Shown: positions 39,422-49,254 of the stretch, piece by piece
Layout: each line of letters begins with the position of its first letter
Position numbering within the stretch: the stretch's first letter is position 1
Origin: Deltaproteobacteria bacterium
Lineage (GTDB): Bacteria; Desulfobacterota; Binatia; UBA1149; JAJCZL01
Direction: 5' to 3'
NCBI GenBank assembly: GCA_029262415.1
Contig: JAJCZL010000034.1
Location: forward strand, 62,001 to 126,000
Length of the DNA stretch: 64,000 bases
Made by a program: the position numbers and the translations under genes
Notes under the pieces: model-generated
The model's input: only the letters and a program-made list of their open reading frames with translations
Told to the model about the DNA's origin: nothing
Databases searched by the model: none

Positions 39422-40957
39422 ATGCGCGCCGAAGAGCCACCTGAGGACTCCGCTCAGACCGATATCCCCGGCGAATCGCTGGATCCGGAGTCCGCTCCGG
39501 CGCTACCGGCGGCCTCGCTGGCCAGCCACGCCCTCGCCGCGCTCACGAGTGTACGCGAGGCCGCGCGCACGGTCCGCCCGTCTGCGAAGATCGGGACAGT
39601 CGCGGACATCTGGCGCTTGGCGTGGCCGGTGATGCTCTCGCAGTTCCTCGTCAACGCCGTCAGCATCGTAGACATCGCGATGGTCGGCAGGCTGGGTGCC
39701 GATTCTGTCGCGGCTGTCGGCTACGCGGCCCAGTTTTTCTTCCTTGCGCAGTCTGCGTTGATTTCGGTCGGGTTCGCCTGCGTTGCGCTCGTCGCACAAT
39801 CGCTCGGTGCCGGTGACCGCGAGAGCGCACGCCAAGCGACGGCTGCGTCGTTCTGCGTGTCGGTGCTCACTGCGCTTGCACTTACAGTTCCGATTCTGGC
39901 CGCTCCGCGCACGTGGCTCAATCTACTCAGCGCCGAACCACACGTTATCGAGCGGACGCTTCCGTACCTACGCCTTTTGCTCTGCTCGGCGTCGTTGCTC
40001 GGCCTGTCGATGGTCTTCGATGCGTCGCTGCGTGCCGACAAGAACACCACCACGCCCATGCTGATCGCACTCGCGGTGACGTTGGTCAAGGTTGCGCTGA
40101 ATATTTTGTTGATCTTCGGGGTGGCTGGGTTTCCTCGTCTCGAACTGGTTGGCGCTGGGATTGCCACGGTAGTGTCTCAGGTGGTTGGCGTCGCCTGCTA
40201 TATCTTTGTTGCACGCAGCCGCCCCGCATCGACGATCGCAGTACGGCGTGCGGATCTGCGGCCTGCTTGCACGCGTGTTGCCGATGTACGGCGCATCGCT
40301 TTGCCGGGAGTGCTTGAGCGGGTGGTACTGAACTTTGCGCTGCTCAGCTACTTTGCCATTCTTGGGGCCTATGGGACGGTTGCCGTTGCCGCGTATACGG
40401 TCGGCGTGCGCGTGCTTTCGTTTTCATGGATTCCCGGCACCGGATACGCGGCTGCGGCGGCGACTCTGGTCGGTCAGGCGCTTGGTGCCGGATCGCCAAA
40501 GCGTGCCGAACGGGTTGGCTGGAGTGCCGCCGGTCTCGCCGTCGCGACGGCTATACCCCTGGGCGCGGCGTGCGCGCTGGGACGCTTCGAACTTGCCGCG
40601 CTTTTCATCGACGACGCGGAGACCATCCAGACTCTGGGGCCGTTCATGCTCTGTGTCGCGCTCGCGCAGCCGATGCTGCAACTTCACTTCACCCTCGGTG
40701 GCGCGCACCGCGGCGCGGGAGATACCTGGACGCCGATGTTGGCCGCGACGTTGGGCAACTGGGTGTTCCGTGTTCCGCTTGCGGTGCTCGCCGGGGTCGT
40801 GTTGCATACCGAACTGGTGTGGATTTGGGCTGCACTGATCGTCGATCACGCAGCTAGGGCAGTGTGGTTGTTGTGGAGTTTCCGGCGTGGGGGTTGGAAG
40901 CAGCGCGCCGCTAGGATCACCTCTCGGCAGCATCCCGGGTCGTCCGCCGCTCGCTGA
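39422..40957 (+). CDS. MATE-family multidrug/solute exporter
   Basis: Polytopic membrane protein of about 511 residues with 12 predicted helices in two similar halves. RLAWPVMLSQFLVNAVSIVD at the first helix and GTGYAAAATLVGQALGAG in the second half are typical of NorM/DinF-type Na+ or H+ antiporters. An upstream ATG at 39335 is also possible; neither has a clear ribosome-binding site. The stop overlaps the convergent response-regulator gene by 41 bases. The substrate is unknown. Confidence 0.88.
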   Translation: MRAEEPPEDSAQTDIPGESLDPESAPALPAASLASHALAALTSVREAARTVRPSAKIGTVADIWRLAWPVMLSQFLVNAVSIVDIAMVGRLGADSVAAVGYAAQFFFLAQSALISVGFACVALVAQSLGAGDRESARQATAASFCVSVLTALALTVPILAAPRTWLNLLSAEPHVIERTLPYLRLLLCSASLLGLSMVFDASLRADKNTTTPMLIALAVTLVKVALNILLIFGVAGFPRLELVGAGIATVVSQVVGVACYIFVARSRPASTIAVRRADLRPACTRVADVRRIALPGVLERVVLNFALLSYFAILGAYGTVAVAAYTVGVRVLSFSWIPGTGYAAAAATLVGQALGAGSPKRAERVGWSAAGLAVATAIPLGAACALGRFELAALFIDDAETIQTLGPFMLCVALAQPMLQLHFTLGGAHRGAGDTWTPMLAATLGNWVFRVPLAVLAGVVLHTELVWIWAALIVDHAARAVWLLWSFRRGGWKQRAARITSRQHPGSSAAR

Positions 40958-41306
40958 TGCGGTCGACCGCCTCGACGATATCGGCCAACGTGAACGGCTT
41001 CTCGATGAAGTGAGCTATGTTCGAACGTAGCACCTCACGTTTGAGTCCAGGTGACGGATAGCCGGTAATTAAGACCGTCTCCATCCCCGGCTTGCTTTTC
41101 TCCAGCTGTGCACTGACCTCGATGCCGTCGATGTCGTTGTTCAACATCCAGTCTACGACGAGAATGTCGGGCTTGAACTCGTTTCCGATCTTGATGGCGT
41201 CGTGTCCGCCACGGGCGGTTCGCACATCGTAGTTCTCGTCCTCGAGCGCGAGCGCCAAGTACTTGCGGTATGTTTCGACGTCGTCGACAACTAAAACTTT
41301 TGTCAT
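40917..41306 (-). CDS. single-domain response regulator
   Basis: CheY-like receiver of 129 residues with no output domain. The acidic pocket is VDDVE, the phospho-acceptor is Asp52 in VVDWML, and the switch Thr81 (LITGYP) and Lys103 (FIEKPF) are present. It starts four bases after the histidine kinase stop, so the pair is clearly one system. Output must pass through a protein elsewhere. Confidence 0.92.
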   Translation of the reverse strand: MTKVLVVDDVETYRKYLALALEDENYDVRTARGGHDAIKIGNEFKPDILVVDWMLNNDIDGIEVSAQLEKSKPGMETVLITGYPSPGLKREVLRSNIAHFIEKPFTLADIVEAVDRISERRTTRDAAER

Positions 41307-41310
41307 TGGG

Positions 41311-42504
41311 TCATTCTCCTGTGTCGGTCGTGCGGGATGAAGGAAGCGTGATTTTCATGGTGGTGCCTGCTCCGAGTTGTGTGGCAACCTCAATGGTCCC
41401 TTTGTGTTCTGTTACGATCCCATGAGTGATGCTCAATCCGAGGCCGGTGCCGCCCTTATCGCGTCGGGTAGTGAAGAAAGGATCGAAAAGATTCTTGACG
41501 GCTTCTGGTTTGACGCCTGGACCATCGTCGCGTATCCAGACCGATATCGAGCCGTCCGCGTTTTGTCGGGTTTGGATTTCAACGGTGGACGATCCTGCCT
41601 CGAAGCCGTTTCTGACGAGGTTCACAATGACCTGGGTTATCTCTGTTTCGTTGAACGAGACCCGAGGCAAATCTTCGCCGAGCGCCAATTCGAGTGTCCC
41701 GTTCCATTCTTCCGCGTACGAGTTCACCAGCGCAGATGCGCGGCGTATCGCGTCATTGATGTCGCCCGGCAGCTTCTCCGCGGTCTCTTCGCGCGCGAAC
41801 TGAAGGACGCTCTGAACGATGTCGCCGCAGCGTGCCGCCTCGGAGGCGATGTCGGTTAACGCTTCTATGGTACGCGGGTTGGTTTCGTTGTCCCTGGCGA
41901 ACTCTGCCGCGAGAAGGATGGCGCCGATAGGATTGTTGATTTCGTGCGCGATGCCGGCCGCGAGTGTACCAATCGACGCCAAACGTTCGGATCGGCGCGC
42001 ATCGCGCTCGGCCTGCTTCCTGGTTGTTATGTCTTCGGCAATCCCGATCATGTACGCAGTCTGGCCGTCTGCGCCTCGCACCGGGAATGAGCGGTCCCAA
42101 ATCCACCGCATCGCCCCATCTGGGCGTAGGATGCGGTACTCTTCCGCGTAGGAGTCCGCTTCCCAGATTTCCGCGAACCTAGCCGAGACGCGTCCATGGT
42201 CCTCGTGGTGGATCGCCTCTTGCCAGACGAGAGGAGATTCGTAGAGACTCTTGAGCTCTCGTCCCCAAACACGTTCGAAAGCAGGGCTTACGTAGAGGAG
42301 TTGGTTGGTGCGGCGGTCGAGCATCCAGATCACTTCGTTGATGTTGTCGAGGAAGGTGCTGAAGAGCTGATCACGCTCGACGAAGCGGCGTCTGCGGTTG
42401 GCACGGTCGTTGAGCCGTTGCTCGAGTTCACTCACCCTTGCCTGCAAGAGCCTGACGTTGCTCTGTTCGCCGACGGCGAGATCTTTTGGCCTGGTTGTCC
42501 CCAT
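41311..42504 (-). CDS. soluble PAS-domain sensor histidine kinase
   Basis: Protein of 397 residues without membrane helices. A short coiled coil (residues 18-45) leads to a PAS/PAC domain (about 45-160, ending GIAEDITTRKQAERDAR). The H-box is SIGTLAAGIAHEINNPIG with His187, and the catalytic domain has VIVNLVRNGFEA, DDGPGVK and GTGLGLSITHGIV. The PAS domain may bind haem, flavin or a small molecule; no ligand residue can be assigned from sequence alone. Partner of the single-domain regulator immediately downstream. Confidence 0.92.
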   Translation of the reverse strand: MGTTRPKDLAVGEQSNVRLLQARVSELEQRLNDRANRRRRFVERDQLFSTFLDNINEVIWMLDRRTNQLLYVSPAFERVWGRELKSLYESPLVWQEAIHHEDHGRVSARFAEIWEADSYAEEYRILRPDGAMRWIWDRSFPVRGADGQTAYMIGIAEDITTRKQAERDARRSERLASIGTLAAGIAHEINNPIGAILLAAEFARDNETNPRTIEALTDIASEAARCGDIVQSVLQFAREETAEKLPGDINDAIRRASALVNSYAEEWNGTLELALGEDLPRVSFNETEITQVIVNLVRNGFEAGSSTVEIQTRQNADGSISVWIRDDGPGVKPEAVKNLFDPFFTTRRDKGGTGLGLSITHGIVTEHKGTIEVATQLGAGTTMKITLPSSRTTDTGE

Positions 42505-43788: not shown

Positions 43789-43816
43789 TGAACGATTCGC
43801 CGCCCAGGTGCGTATT
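43789..43816 (+). promoter_or_regulatory. candidate ECF sigma-dependent promoter
   Basis: TTTTGAAC, then 17 bases, then CGTATT, about 40 bases before the first PspC gene. GAAC -35 and CGT-type -10 elements with this spacing are common for ECF promoters, and the operon encodes an ECF factor, so autoregulation is plausible. This is one instance only; no second copy was used to test it. Confidence 0.35.
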
Positions 43817-43856
43817 ACCGACCGTTAAGTGACCAAAACCCATCGAGGAGGGGATC

Positions 43857-44243
43857 ATGGCTGAAATGAAAGATTGTCCGTATTGCGCCGAGGAGATTCG
43901 CGCCCAGGCGGTCCGATGTCCACATTGCCGCAGCAGAATTCAGGGGCTTGACCGCGACCAGTGGTACCGCGACCACGAGGAGGCGCGTGTGGCGGGGGTG
44001 TGTGCCGCAGTGGCCAAGGCCTTTGCGGTATCGCCGGGGGTTGTGCGCGCCGGGTTCGTCCTCGCCTCGTTCTTCCATCTGCTCGGGCCGATCGTCTATG
44101 GGTTTTTGTGGCTGGCCATCCCCGGCCGTCGCGGCGAGGACTCGATCCTCGAGCGCTTGCTCCGGCGTGCTCTCGATGCCGCCTCGCGGTTCGGAGGCAA
44201 ATGCACCCGTGACAAGCGTCACCCCGCTGGGGGGGCGTGCTAA
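43857..44243 (+). CDS. zinc-ribbon PspC-domain membrane protein (first copy)
   Basis: Protein of 128 residues. CPYCAEEIRAQAVRCPHCRS is a four-Cys zinc ribbon, followed by a linker, VAGVCAAVAKAFAVSP and a hydrophobic helix GFVLASFFHLLGPIVYGFLW, the PspC core. PspC proteins act at the inner membrane in phage-shock or envelope stress. A strong GAGGAGGGG precedes the ATG. It is the first gene of the operon containing an ECF sigma factor, and resembles the fourth gene along its whole core. Confidence 0.85.
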   Translation: MAEMKDCPYCAEEIRAQAVRCPHCRSRIQGLDRDQWYRDHEEARVAGVCAAVAKAFAVSPGVVRAGFVLASFFHLLGPIVYGFLWLAIPGRRGEDSILERLLRRALDAASRFGGKCTRDKRHPAGGAC

Positions 44244-44269
44244 CCGCGCGGCCGTGGTAAGCCGATGGA

Positions 44270-44848
44270 ATGGCGAGCGATGAAGAACTGGTCGCGGCGC
44301 TCGCGGGCGGAGACGAGCGGGCGTTCGAAGAGTTGGTCGTCAGATACCGGCAGCGGTTGTTCGCTTTTGTCTATCGTCACACCGGCGGGCCGGACGCGGA
44401 CGATATCGTCCAAGAGACGTGGATGCGGATCCTGCGCGCCGCAGGTTCATTCGACTCGCGCAAGCGGTTTACGACTTGGCTCTTTCAGGTCGCTCTCAAC
44501 CTTTGCCGGGATTTTGGCCGCCGCAGACGCGTTCGCGGACCAGAGGCCGAGTCCGGCTGCAACGGCGAAGAACAAGACGTCGAAAGCGAGGCCTCTTCCG
44601 TTATGGTCGAAGACGCTGCAGCCGCGCGTATCGATGCGGAACGGTTCCTTGCCCGCTTGCCGGAGGAGCAACGTGAAGTTTTGATCCTGCGCTTTCACGC
44701 CGATCTAAGCGAGCACGAGATCGCCGATCTACTCGGGTGTCCTCCCGGCACCGTGAAAAGCCGCATACACTACGCGCTCGCGCGGCTTGCCAAAGCGGCA
44801 GCTGCCAGTGGCGACGGATCGCGCGTGGATCGTGCGAAGAAATCATAG
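44270..44848 (+). CDS. ECF-family RNA polymerase sigma factor
   Basis: Sigma-70 family factor of 192 residues with only regions 2 and 4. Region 2 is FEELVVRYRQRLFAFVYRH with DADDIVQETWMRILRAA and FTTWLFQVALNLCRDFGRR; region 4 is ARLPEEQREVLILRFHADLS with GCPPGTVKSRIHYALARL. The linker (residues 90-120) is acidic and long. It begins 26 bases after the first PspC gene and is followed by its probable anti-sigma factor. Confidence 0.93.
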   Translation: MASDEELVAALAGGDERAFEELVVRYRQRLFAFVYRHTGGPDADDIVQETWMRILRAAGSFDSRKRFTTWLFQVALNLCRDFGRRRRVRGPEAESGCNGEEQDVESEASSVMVEDAAAARIDAERFLARLPEEQREVLILRFHADLSEHEIADLLGCPPGTVKSRIHYALARLAKAAAASGDGSRVDRAKKS

Positions 44849-44857
44849 GGAGCGGAG

Positions 44858-45340
44858 ATGCCCAAACGCGTGAACGACGATCGTGACAAGCTACGTCCGG
44901 CATTGGAGGATCACGTTACCTCGTGCGAGGTTTGCGAGTCCGATCCTATCGACCTCGCAGCGGCTGAAGCGCTGCTGTGTTCGTTGTCCTCGGTCCGGCC
45001 GAGCGATGCATCGACCGAGGCGCTGCTGCGTATGGCCCGAGTCGAGCTCGCGCGCAACGCAGCGTGGGTGCAGCGGCGACGTATCACAGCCGCGATTGCA
45101 TTGGCGATGCTGCCGCTGCCGTTGATTGCTTTCTACGGAGTCGCGGTTGTGTCATTCGTCGGTTCGGTTGCGGCCAAGCTGCTCCCCGAGAGCGTGGCTG
45201 CGTATGTTACTACGGCCTACGCCGCGTCGATCGTTCTCGTCTACGCATCGACCTACGCGGCGGTCCCGCTGCTTCTCGACCGCTTCCGAGCCGGCTATCC
45301 GGGCGTGCGAGCACTGCGACCCGATGGAGTCCCGTCATGA
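44858..45340 (+). CDS. membrane anti-sigma factor with ZAS-like motif
   Basis: Protein of 160 residues. The N-terminal cytoplasmic part has DHVTSCEVCES, an HxxxCxxC zinc anti-sigma motif. Two or three membrane helices follow (ITAAIALAMLPLPLIAFYG, VAVVSFVGSVAA and TTAYAASIVLVYASTYAA). It should hold the upstream sigma factor at the membrane until a signal arrives. Its stop overlaps the start of the second PspC gene (ATGA). Confidence 0.82.
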   Translation: MPKRVNDDRDKLRPALEDHVTSCEVCESDPIDLAAAEALLCSLSSVRPSDASTEALLRMARVELARNAAWVQRRRITAAIALAMLPLPLIAFYGVAVVSFVGSVAAKLLPESVAAYVTTAYAASIVLVYASTYAAVPLLLDRFRAGYPGVRALRPDGVPS

Positions 45341-45639
45341 AAACCTGCCCCTATTGCGCCGAAGAAATCCGCGATGCTGCGATCAAGTGCCGCTACTGCG
45401 GCAGCAATCTCGGCACCGGGCCGGTTGGCCGTGAGTGGTACCGAAAGCGTGAAGGGAAGATGATCGCTGGCGTCTGCTCAGGGCTTGCCGACCAGTTCAG
45501 TCTATCCGTTACCGCTATGCGTGTCGCTGCAGTTGTGCTCACGCTGATGGGTGCGGGGTGGGGGGTGTTGATCTACATCGTACTGTGGATCGTCATGCCG
45601 TACGGCCGTCGGACACACGTGGTTTTGGAGTCTCGCTAG
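45337..45639 (+). CDS. zinc-ribbon PspC-domain membrane protein (second copy)
   Basis: Protein of 100 residues. CPYCAEEIRDAAIKCRYCGS is the zinc ribbon; REWYRKREGKMIAGVCSGLA leads into the PspC membrane helix LTLMGAGWGVLIYIVLWIV. It shares the layout and much of the sequence with the first copy but lacks that protein's basic C-terminal tail. It is translationally coupled to the anti-sigma gene. The last four bases overlap the convergent phosphatase gene. Confidence 0.87.
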   Translation: MKTCPYCAEEIRDAAIKCRYCGSNLGTGPVGREWYRKREGKMIAGVCSGLADQFSLSVTAMRVAAVVLTLMGAGWGVLIYIVLWIVMPYGRRTHVVLESR

Positions 45640-48490: not shown

Positions 48491-49123
48491 TTACGCCGGA
48501 ATCGCGAGCTCGCGCGGCACCTGGCGCCACGGCACGTCGAACAGCCGGACAGGCTCCTGCAGGCCGTCGAGTGTTTCCGTCCCGATTTCGTGAAAGTGGA
48601 AACCCTTGCCCGCAGTCAGCAGACGCACGACATCGGATACCACCACGCGGCCACCCGGGGCACGCTCGGCGATACGCGAGGCGATGTTGACCGCAGCGCC
48701 GAAGATGTCGCCATTGTCGACCACGGGTGCGCCGGTGTTCAATCCGATGGCCACCTGCAGCGGCGGGCCCTGAGTGGTCGAGTTGTAGTCGTCGCAGTCG
48801 CGCTGGATTTCGACGGCACATTCGAGCGCACGCGCTGCAGACAGAAAGTAGGACATGATACCGTCACCGGTCTGCTTGACCTCGACCCCGCCCATGTTGG
48901 CCAGCGACTTGCGCACGATCCGGTTGTGGGTGCGGACCAGGGCAAGGGCGCGCTTGTCGCCGATTTCTTCGGTGAGCCCCGTGTAACCCTCGATGTCGGT
49001 GAAAAGGATCGTGAGGTCTACGGGCCCGAGCAATTCGGGCTGCCCCGAGGCGAGGCCGAGAACCGTCCTGGCGAGCGGGACAAGCCTTGATATTTCGCGT
49101 TTGAGGTCGGTTCTCAGGTCCAT
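48491..49123 (-). CDS. adenylate/guanylate cyclase catalytic-domain protein
   Basis: Class III nucleotide cyclase of about 210 residues with no membrane segment. TILFTDIEGYTGLTEE provides the first metal Asp, VEVKQTGDGIMSYFLSA the second, and NTGAPVVDNGDIFGAAVNIASRI the conserved substrate/transition-state region. The N-terminal 45 residues (DLKREISRLVPLARTV) form a short helix instead of a sensor domain. An in-frame GTG at 49141 adds six residues and is an alternative start. Whether it makes cAMP or cGMP cannot be decided here. Confidence 0.88.
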   Translation of the reverse strand: MDLRTDLKREISRLVPLARTVLGLASGQPELLGPVDLTILFTDIEGYTGLTEEIGDKRALALVRTHNRIVRKSLANMGGVEVKQTGDGIMSYFLSAARALECAVEIQRDCDDYNSTTQGPPLQVAIGLNTGAPVVDNGDIFGAAVNIASRIAERAPGGRVVVSDVVRLLTAGKGFHFHEIGTETLDGLQEPVRLFDVPWRQVPRELAIPA

Positions 49124-49254
49124 GGTTTTCAGTCCCGGCACAGATTTCCGCTGTTTTACGTGCCTTTGAGACTATAACGCATCGCAGCGTTTGCCGCAAT
49201 GCGTTAATGATAATACCGCGATCGACGCTGATGGGCCACCCGGGTGACTTACCG

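Follow-up and report, generated by a model that had tools for sequence, protein, structure and literature searches.

The window, that is, the whole stretch of 64,000 nucleotides that was analysed, contains four close-packed genes, all on the plus strand, which encode in order a PspC protein (PspC-A), an ECF sigma factor, a predicted anti-sigma factor and a second PspC protein (PspC-B). This is the gene order proposed in the initial annotation, and all four genes were called on that strand with tight spacing. The stop codon of the anti-sigma gene is overlapped by the ATG of PspC-B, and in most of the operons described below the anti-sigma and PspC-B genes, as well as the sigma and anti-sigma genes, overlap or almost touch. 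No pspF gene lies within the operon. The features of the locus are as follows, where counts out of 24 refer to the operons found in genomes of the same class.

43789-43818, plus strand: putative ECF-type promoter, composed of TGAAC (-35, 43789-43793), a 17-base spacer and CGTATTAC (-10, 43811-43818)
43845-43853, plus strand: ribosome-binding site GAGGAGGGG of PspC-A, by direct reading
43857-44243, plus strand: PspC-A, 128 aa, with zinc ribbon, PspC domain and C-terminal tail (PF04024, E = 7.8e-15)
43875-43928, plus strand: four-Cys ribbon of PspC-A (C7, C10, C21, C24), CxxC-x10-CxxC, in 24/24
44142-44195, plus strand: residues 96-113 of PspC-A, a segment near the C terminus that is amphipathic by its helical moment and is a candidate partner-binding element
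44270-44848, plus strand: ECF sigma factor, 192 aa, with sigma2 and sigma4 domains (Pfam)
44858-45340, plus strand: putative membrane anti-sigma factor, 160 aa, with cytoplasmic anti-sigma domain and two-TM region (model, profiles, context)
44912-44935, plus strand: H-x3-C-x2-C motif of the anti-sigma (H19, C23, C26), present in 17/24
45092-45295, plus strand: two-TM region of the anti-sigma, with invariant P88 and P137 (hydropathy, conservation)
45337-45639, plus strand: PspC-B, 100 aa, with zinc ribbon and PspC domain (PF04024, E = 7.3e-22; Zn_ribbon_3, 28.1 bits)
45346-45399, plus strand: four-Cys ribbon of PspC-B (C4, C7, C18, C21), invariant in 24/24

The sigma factor matches the Pfam models Sigma70_r2 (64.8 bits, E = 6e-18) and Sigma70_r4_2 (54.6 bits, E = 8e-15), scores 112 bits with TIGR02937, whose cut-off is 42.9, and its profile finds SigW and E. 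coli sigma-E among PDB entries. With 192 aa and no regions other than sigma2 and sigma4, it conforms to the ECF family, whose members have about 170-200 aa, and its own gene lies behind a GAAC/CGT-type promoter, which it is predicted to recognize. The closest NCBIfam equivalog is NF009166 (PRK12513), obtained with a score of 162.7, under its cut-off of 206.

The sigma protein was searched against 145 genomes of the same class, which yielded close orthologues in 24 of them, source genome included (E <= 1.4e-42), followed by a gap to E ~1e-28. In this search the 23 other orthologues are 49-59% identical over the matched part, and a separate comparison of the orthologues gave 47-56%. The order PspC-A, sigma, anti-sigma, PspC-B is kept at all 24 loci (23/23 besides the window), and the six next-best sigma loci of the class show no trace of the PspC operon. 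When these genomes were scanned with PF04024, each of the 24 carriers presented exactly two PspC genes, both inside the operon, which are also the only two found in the source genome; none of the 121 non-carrier genomes presented two, and 25 presented one. Given that the carriers fall in nine families of the class, the operon is patchy but old. A partial 16S sequence has apparently deltaproteobacterial features, and the class might be similar to Binatia.

In a wider sample of 395 genomes from the phylum, one further class, with three genomes in the collection, has the operon. It is complete in G184 and G219, with the same order and with the promoter present in both (2/2), and in G145 PspC-B alone was found, near a contig end. 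The next nearest ECF genes of this sample, in G178 and G446, have no PspC alongside. The four-gene unit noticed in the initial annotation is thus conserved, with sigma homologues adjoining PspC genes in 23/23 other class orthologues and in 2/2 second-class copies. Since order and promoter are kept throughout these copies, their conservation is far beyond chance, although the 24 class operons are not 24 independent events, as the class carriers share descent. Judging by this conservation, the four-gene unit is a real, conserved, putative stress switch of uncultured bacteria.

The wider neighbourhoods of eight operons, compared with crude gene calling, have no common flanking gene beyond close relatives. 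A contig scan with the sigma protein returned distant ECFs only, of 29-39% identity, with ribbon-PspC at none of those loci. On plasmids, the sigma factor and PspC-B as queries returned only unrelated ECFs and distant PspC domains, and a scan of viral contigs with the sigma profile returned three weak ECFs only.

A GAAC-N17-CGTATT sequence upstream of the genes had been suggested as an autoregulated promoter, and GAAC-N16/17-CGTA was found before every homologous operon examined (24/24 and 2/2). In the 24 class operons it lies 45-82 bases 5' of the PspC-A start, with a 17-base spacer in 23 cases and a 16-base spacer in one, while the chance expectation for GAAC-N16/17-CGTA, computed from first-order Markov versions of the upstream regions, is 0.36/24. 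When the upstream regions are aligned on the motif, information is high solely at TGAACC and GCGTATTAC-G, and near zero in most of the spacer and in the bases preceding the motif. As conservation is thus limited to the -35 and -10 elements, the promoter match does not simply reflect a recent shared ancestry of these regions. The operon promoter is probably read by the operon's own sigma factor, which would then be autoregulated.

The range of this promoter was assessed by pattern scans. In the source genome, TGAAC-N16/17-CGTAYYA yielded the operon site and one other site, which by eye appears to lie within an opposite-strand frame that the frame filter missed. Among 23 relatives, TGAACC-N15/16-CGTAYYAC yielded 25 sites, 19 at the operon and six elsewhere, with four for the reversed control; five of the six off-operon sites have an off-register 15-base gap. 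With a two-mismatch pattern, 27 genomes yielded 32 sites, 22 of them at the operon locus, with five for the control, and six of eight examined off-operon sites are inside predicted coding frames. The off-operon matches were considered as a possible regulon and rejected, given that they do not recur and are mostly within coding frames. No second recurrent promoter site was found in the scans of 23 and 27 genomes, which suggests the operon is the sigma factor's own main target, as far as pattern scans can tell; weaker promoters may escape them.

The PspC domain is well supported in both flanking proteins, with PF04024 scores of 54.9 bits (PspC-A) and 77.4 bits (PspC-B) against a cut-off of 25, and the Zn_ribbon_3 match in PspC-B is also above cut-off. 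The sequence CPYCAEEIR, which the initial annotation had noticed in both proteins, is N-terminal in each, within a CxxC-x10-CxxC ribbon, and all eight ribbon cysteines (four in PspC-A, four in PspC-B) are invariant in 24/24. Neither protein reaches the cut-off of 104 for TIGR02978, the equivalog of PspC in the classical Psp response (34.5 and 54.8 bits). In a tree of 56 PspC proteins, A and B are split by one change, with support 93/86 and in 92% of bootstrap trees; the second-class A rows lie on a long branch. According to this tree, the A and B types are distinct groups of long standing, and they hold fixed operon positions. They also differ in their tails: residues 96-113 of PspC-A present a helical moment of 1.84, matched by 0.4% of shuffles, and this fraction of shuffles is near or below 5% in most of the 24 orthologues, whereas the PspC-B tail is short and variable. 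The AlphaFold2 model of PspC-B is poor (pLDDT of 58.7) and was left out of the evidence. An apparently ribbon-free single PspC, with weak matches to the A and B profiles, was observed in class families f7 and f14 (L180, L181, L182).

These differences bear on a reading in which the operon is a case of plain cotranscription, the PspC proteins being ordinary stress proteins and the sole targets of the sigma factor, with no part in signalling and with two copies for dosage. The operon does look like a sole target, as such a reading would have it. However, PspC-A and PspC-B are distinct old types in fixed positions, the PspC-A tail is conserved, and PspC-A was not found alone while PspC-B was, and we consider plain cotranscription quite unlikely.

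No Pfam model covers the third protein, which is assigned as a putative anti-sigma factor on profiles and context, with the helices of its AlphaFold2 model also cited in favour. The best PDB sequence matches of a 24-member profile are ChrR, ChrR and RsiW, with E about 0.1, and the same profile also finds, with E values as low as 3.6e-8, zf-HC2 proteins just 3' of unrelated ECF genes. The zf-HC2 domain is typical of zinc anti-sigmas. The model, with a mean pLDDT of 84.8, contains helices at residues 5-22, 24-28, 33-43, 50-84, 86-108 and 111-146, i.e., a long fourth helix preceded by three short ones and followed by two more, which is compatible with the class I anti-sigma pattern of an N-terminal three-helix bundle plus a fourth helix. 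Foldseek and VIA-align returned no convincing match of the model to a solved fold, by which a known fold is neither shown nor excluded. As in class I anti-sigmas, the gene is ECF-adjacent and co-inherited, being directly 3' of the sigma gene in 24/24 class and 2/2 second-class operons.

Hydropathy indicates two membrane spans in the anti-sigma, with peaks at residues 80-98 and 122-140. This two-TM region, in which P88 and P137 are invariant, is the best conserved part of the protein, with a mean pairwise column identity of 0.39 versus 0.26 for the first three helices. The H-x3-C-x2-C motif, optional in class I anti-sigmas, occurs in 17/24 members, the window protein among them, and has been lost in 7/24, from at least three lineages. 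Given these losses, zinc binding by the anti-sigma is not a common sensing principle, and the anti-sigma's zinc probably does not act as the shared sensor. Together, the better conserved membrane region and the loss of the zinc motif make it more likely that the signal is sensed within the plane of the membrane.

The same losses weigh on a zinc or thiol-redox switch similar to ChrR or RsrA, in which the ribbons and H-x3-C-x2-C would lose zinc upon oxidation or metal shortage and the sigma factor would be freed. Such a switch would account for the eight ribbon cysteines being invariant, for the motif in 17/24 anti-sigmas and for the weak ChrR profile match, but not for the 7/24 that lack the motif. 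In addition, groups of class I anti-sigmas that mix zinc and non-zinc members are known and have been interpreted as having structural zinc (PMC7406223), and ribbon-PspC exists without any sigma factor (PMC11237479; also in G041 and G049). A zinc or redox switch is thus very unlikely. The PspC ribbons themselves may be a zinc sensor, a redox sensor, a brake or purely structural.

Reduced forms of the operon separate the two PspC proteins further. In genus g25, G036 (L177, C37:129000-136000) retains PspC-B and the promoter and, of the anti-sigma, only the membrane half, still in frame; this reading frame may represent an early stage of decay. Two sister genomes present further losses, with a decayed operon remnant and PspC-B in G029 and PspC-B alone in G049, so that G036 followed by G029 and G049 forms a natural reductive series. 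In G041, of a different family, a lone PspC-B lies upstream of a gene that reads as yebC. Altogether, four genomes from two families have lost the sigma factor yet still carry PspC-B. Every lone ribbon-PspC seen is of the B type, and PspC-A was never found alone. As PspC-A vanishes with the sigma factor and PspC-B persists, the two probably do not share one role, and this pattern suggests PspC-B is useful without the sigma factor and PspC-A is not.

The persistence of PspC-B is also relevant to a reading in which both PspC proteins are co-regulators, acting as brakes or sensors in a sensor complex of three membrane proteins, with the real targets of the sigma factor elsewhere behind weaker promoters. 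Although the four genes are co-inherited, with the overlapping or almost touching neighbours described above, and PspC is a known sensor and regulator in enterobacteria (PMC5596341), PspC-B outlives the sigma factor and PspC-A in four genomes and hence has a use of its own, and no second promoter recurs in 27 genomes. We therefore regard this reading as rather unlikely.

The reading we prefer, to which we assign a probability of roughly 0.62, sees the operon as an ECF switch that is self-contained and autoregulated, responds to membrane (envelope) stress and has the zinc-ribbon PspC pair as its main product. At rest, the sigma factor would be held by the N-terminal domain of the anti-sigma, which two membrane helices would anchor, leaving hardly any domain outside. 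A disturbance of the inner membrane would be felt by the membrane region of the anti-sigma, probably also by the PspC partners, and would free the sigma factor, which would then initiate transcription of its operon at TGAACC-N16-CGTATTAC. PspC-A and PspC-B would then rise together with the anti-sigma, and the new anti-sigma would reset the switch. In this scheme, PspC-B would be the likely effector that steadies the membrane, and for PspC-A a part in the switch itself is the likelier role. Binding between sigma and anti-sigma, the signal, and the roles of both PspC proteins are the parts that we infer.

A division of roles between PspC proteins has a precedent in Yersinia, given that PspBC has two independent roles there, activating the response and countering the toxicity of mislocalised secretins (PMC5596341). 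It is conceivable, and proposed here only tentatively, that these two jobs are divided in the present operon, with PspC-A, which would have a cytoplasmic amphipathic tail, acting directly on the anti-sigma/sigma pair and PspC-B protecting the membrane, in a response that would be wholly ECF-driven, would need neither PspF nor PspA and would have essentially its own operon as its regulon. With respect to PspA, there is no match to PF04012 in the source genome. PspA-like matches were found in 13/27 carriers and none in the other 14, and PspA is thus not a required partner, although the presence of such matches in 13 carriers means that freedom from PspA is shown for some carriers only, source genome included. 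The make-up of the operon, behind a promoter that its own sigma factor probably reads, points to a membrane response in which PspC would do without the classical regulators PspF and PspA.

In comparison with the classical Psp system of enterobacteria (PspF-PspA-PspB-PspC), the shared element is that PspC membrane proteins both sense damage to the inner membrane and act on it, PspBC being regulatory as well as protective (PMC5596341). The classical operon, however, depends on sigma-54 and on PspF held by PspA, whereas here an ECF sigma factor and a membrane anti-sigma are in the operon itself, the zinc-ribbon PspC proteins form a distinct pair, and PspA is undetected in the source genome. Lia-type and other PspA-free PspC systems (LiaFSR, HAAS-PadR, histidine kinase-PspC fusions) likewise tie PspC to a transcription regulator without PspA, as in the LiaR-controlled PspC protein of Streptococcus mutans (PMC7906467), yet their regulators are two-component or PadR-type. 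Zinc-ribbon PspC fusions are catalogued in a PSP survey (PMC11237479). PSP surveys also list PspA-free PspC contexts, with a linked sigma factor named only for Toastrack-type contexts (PMC11237479), and the terms "ECF" and "anti-sigma" are absent from the main texts of both surveys.

Among ECF systems, RpoE-ChrR and SigW-RsiW resemble the present unit in having a sigma2-sigma4 protein, an adjacent anti-sigma with an N-terminal helical domain, a GAAC/CGTA-type promoter and probable autoregulation. They differ from it in that the anti-sigma here has two TM helices with very little outside, and the main regulon is apparently its own two-PspC operon. SigY, an ECF sigma factor of Bacillus subtilis, also acts chiefly on its own operon, which encodes small membrane proteins but no PspC and has different partner proteins. 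The initial annotation knew of no described ECF switch built in this way, and in agreement with this no ECF/anti-sigma/PspC operon was found in the open literature searched, a coverage that does not extend to the main 2021 ECF catalogue. The unit may correspond to a catalogued but unstudied ECF group.

PspC is widespread, often without PspA, and the present unit ties it to an ECF sigma factor. With both PspC types in fixed positions and with operons reduced to PspC-B, what PspC does in regulation can be told apart from what it does in protection. The promoter is sharply defined and can be moved to a laboratory host for testing and, as it matches almost solely its own operon, it is a useful candidate for orthogonal ECF switches.

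Three side observations were made. In G178 (L235), at about position 2118, a TGAACC...CGTATA promoter-like site has an ECF gene of a neighbouring type on one side and a mercuric reductase-like gene on the other, with no PspC, and could be another local ECF switch. In the window, by-eye reading of the minus strand indicates a gene for a PAS-type histidine kinase and, after it, a receiver protein that stands alone and has no DNA-binding domain (40917-42504), and a small nucleotide-cyclase-like protein (LFTDIEGYTGLTEEIGD) adjoining an RND efflux gene (48491-49141).
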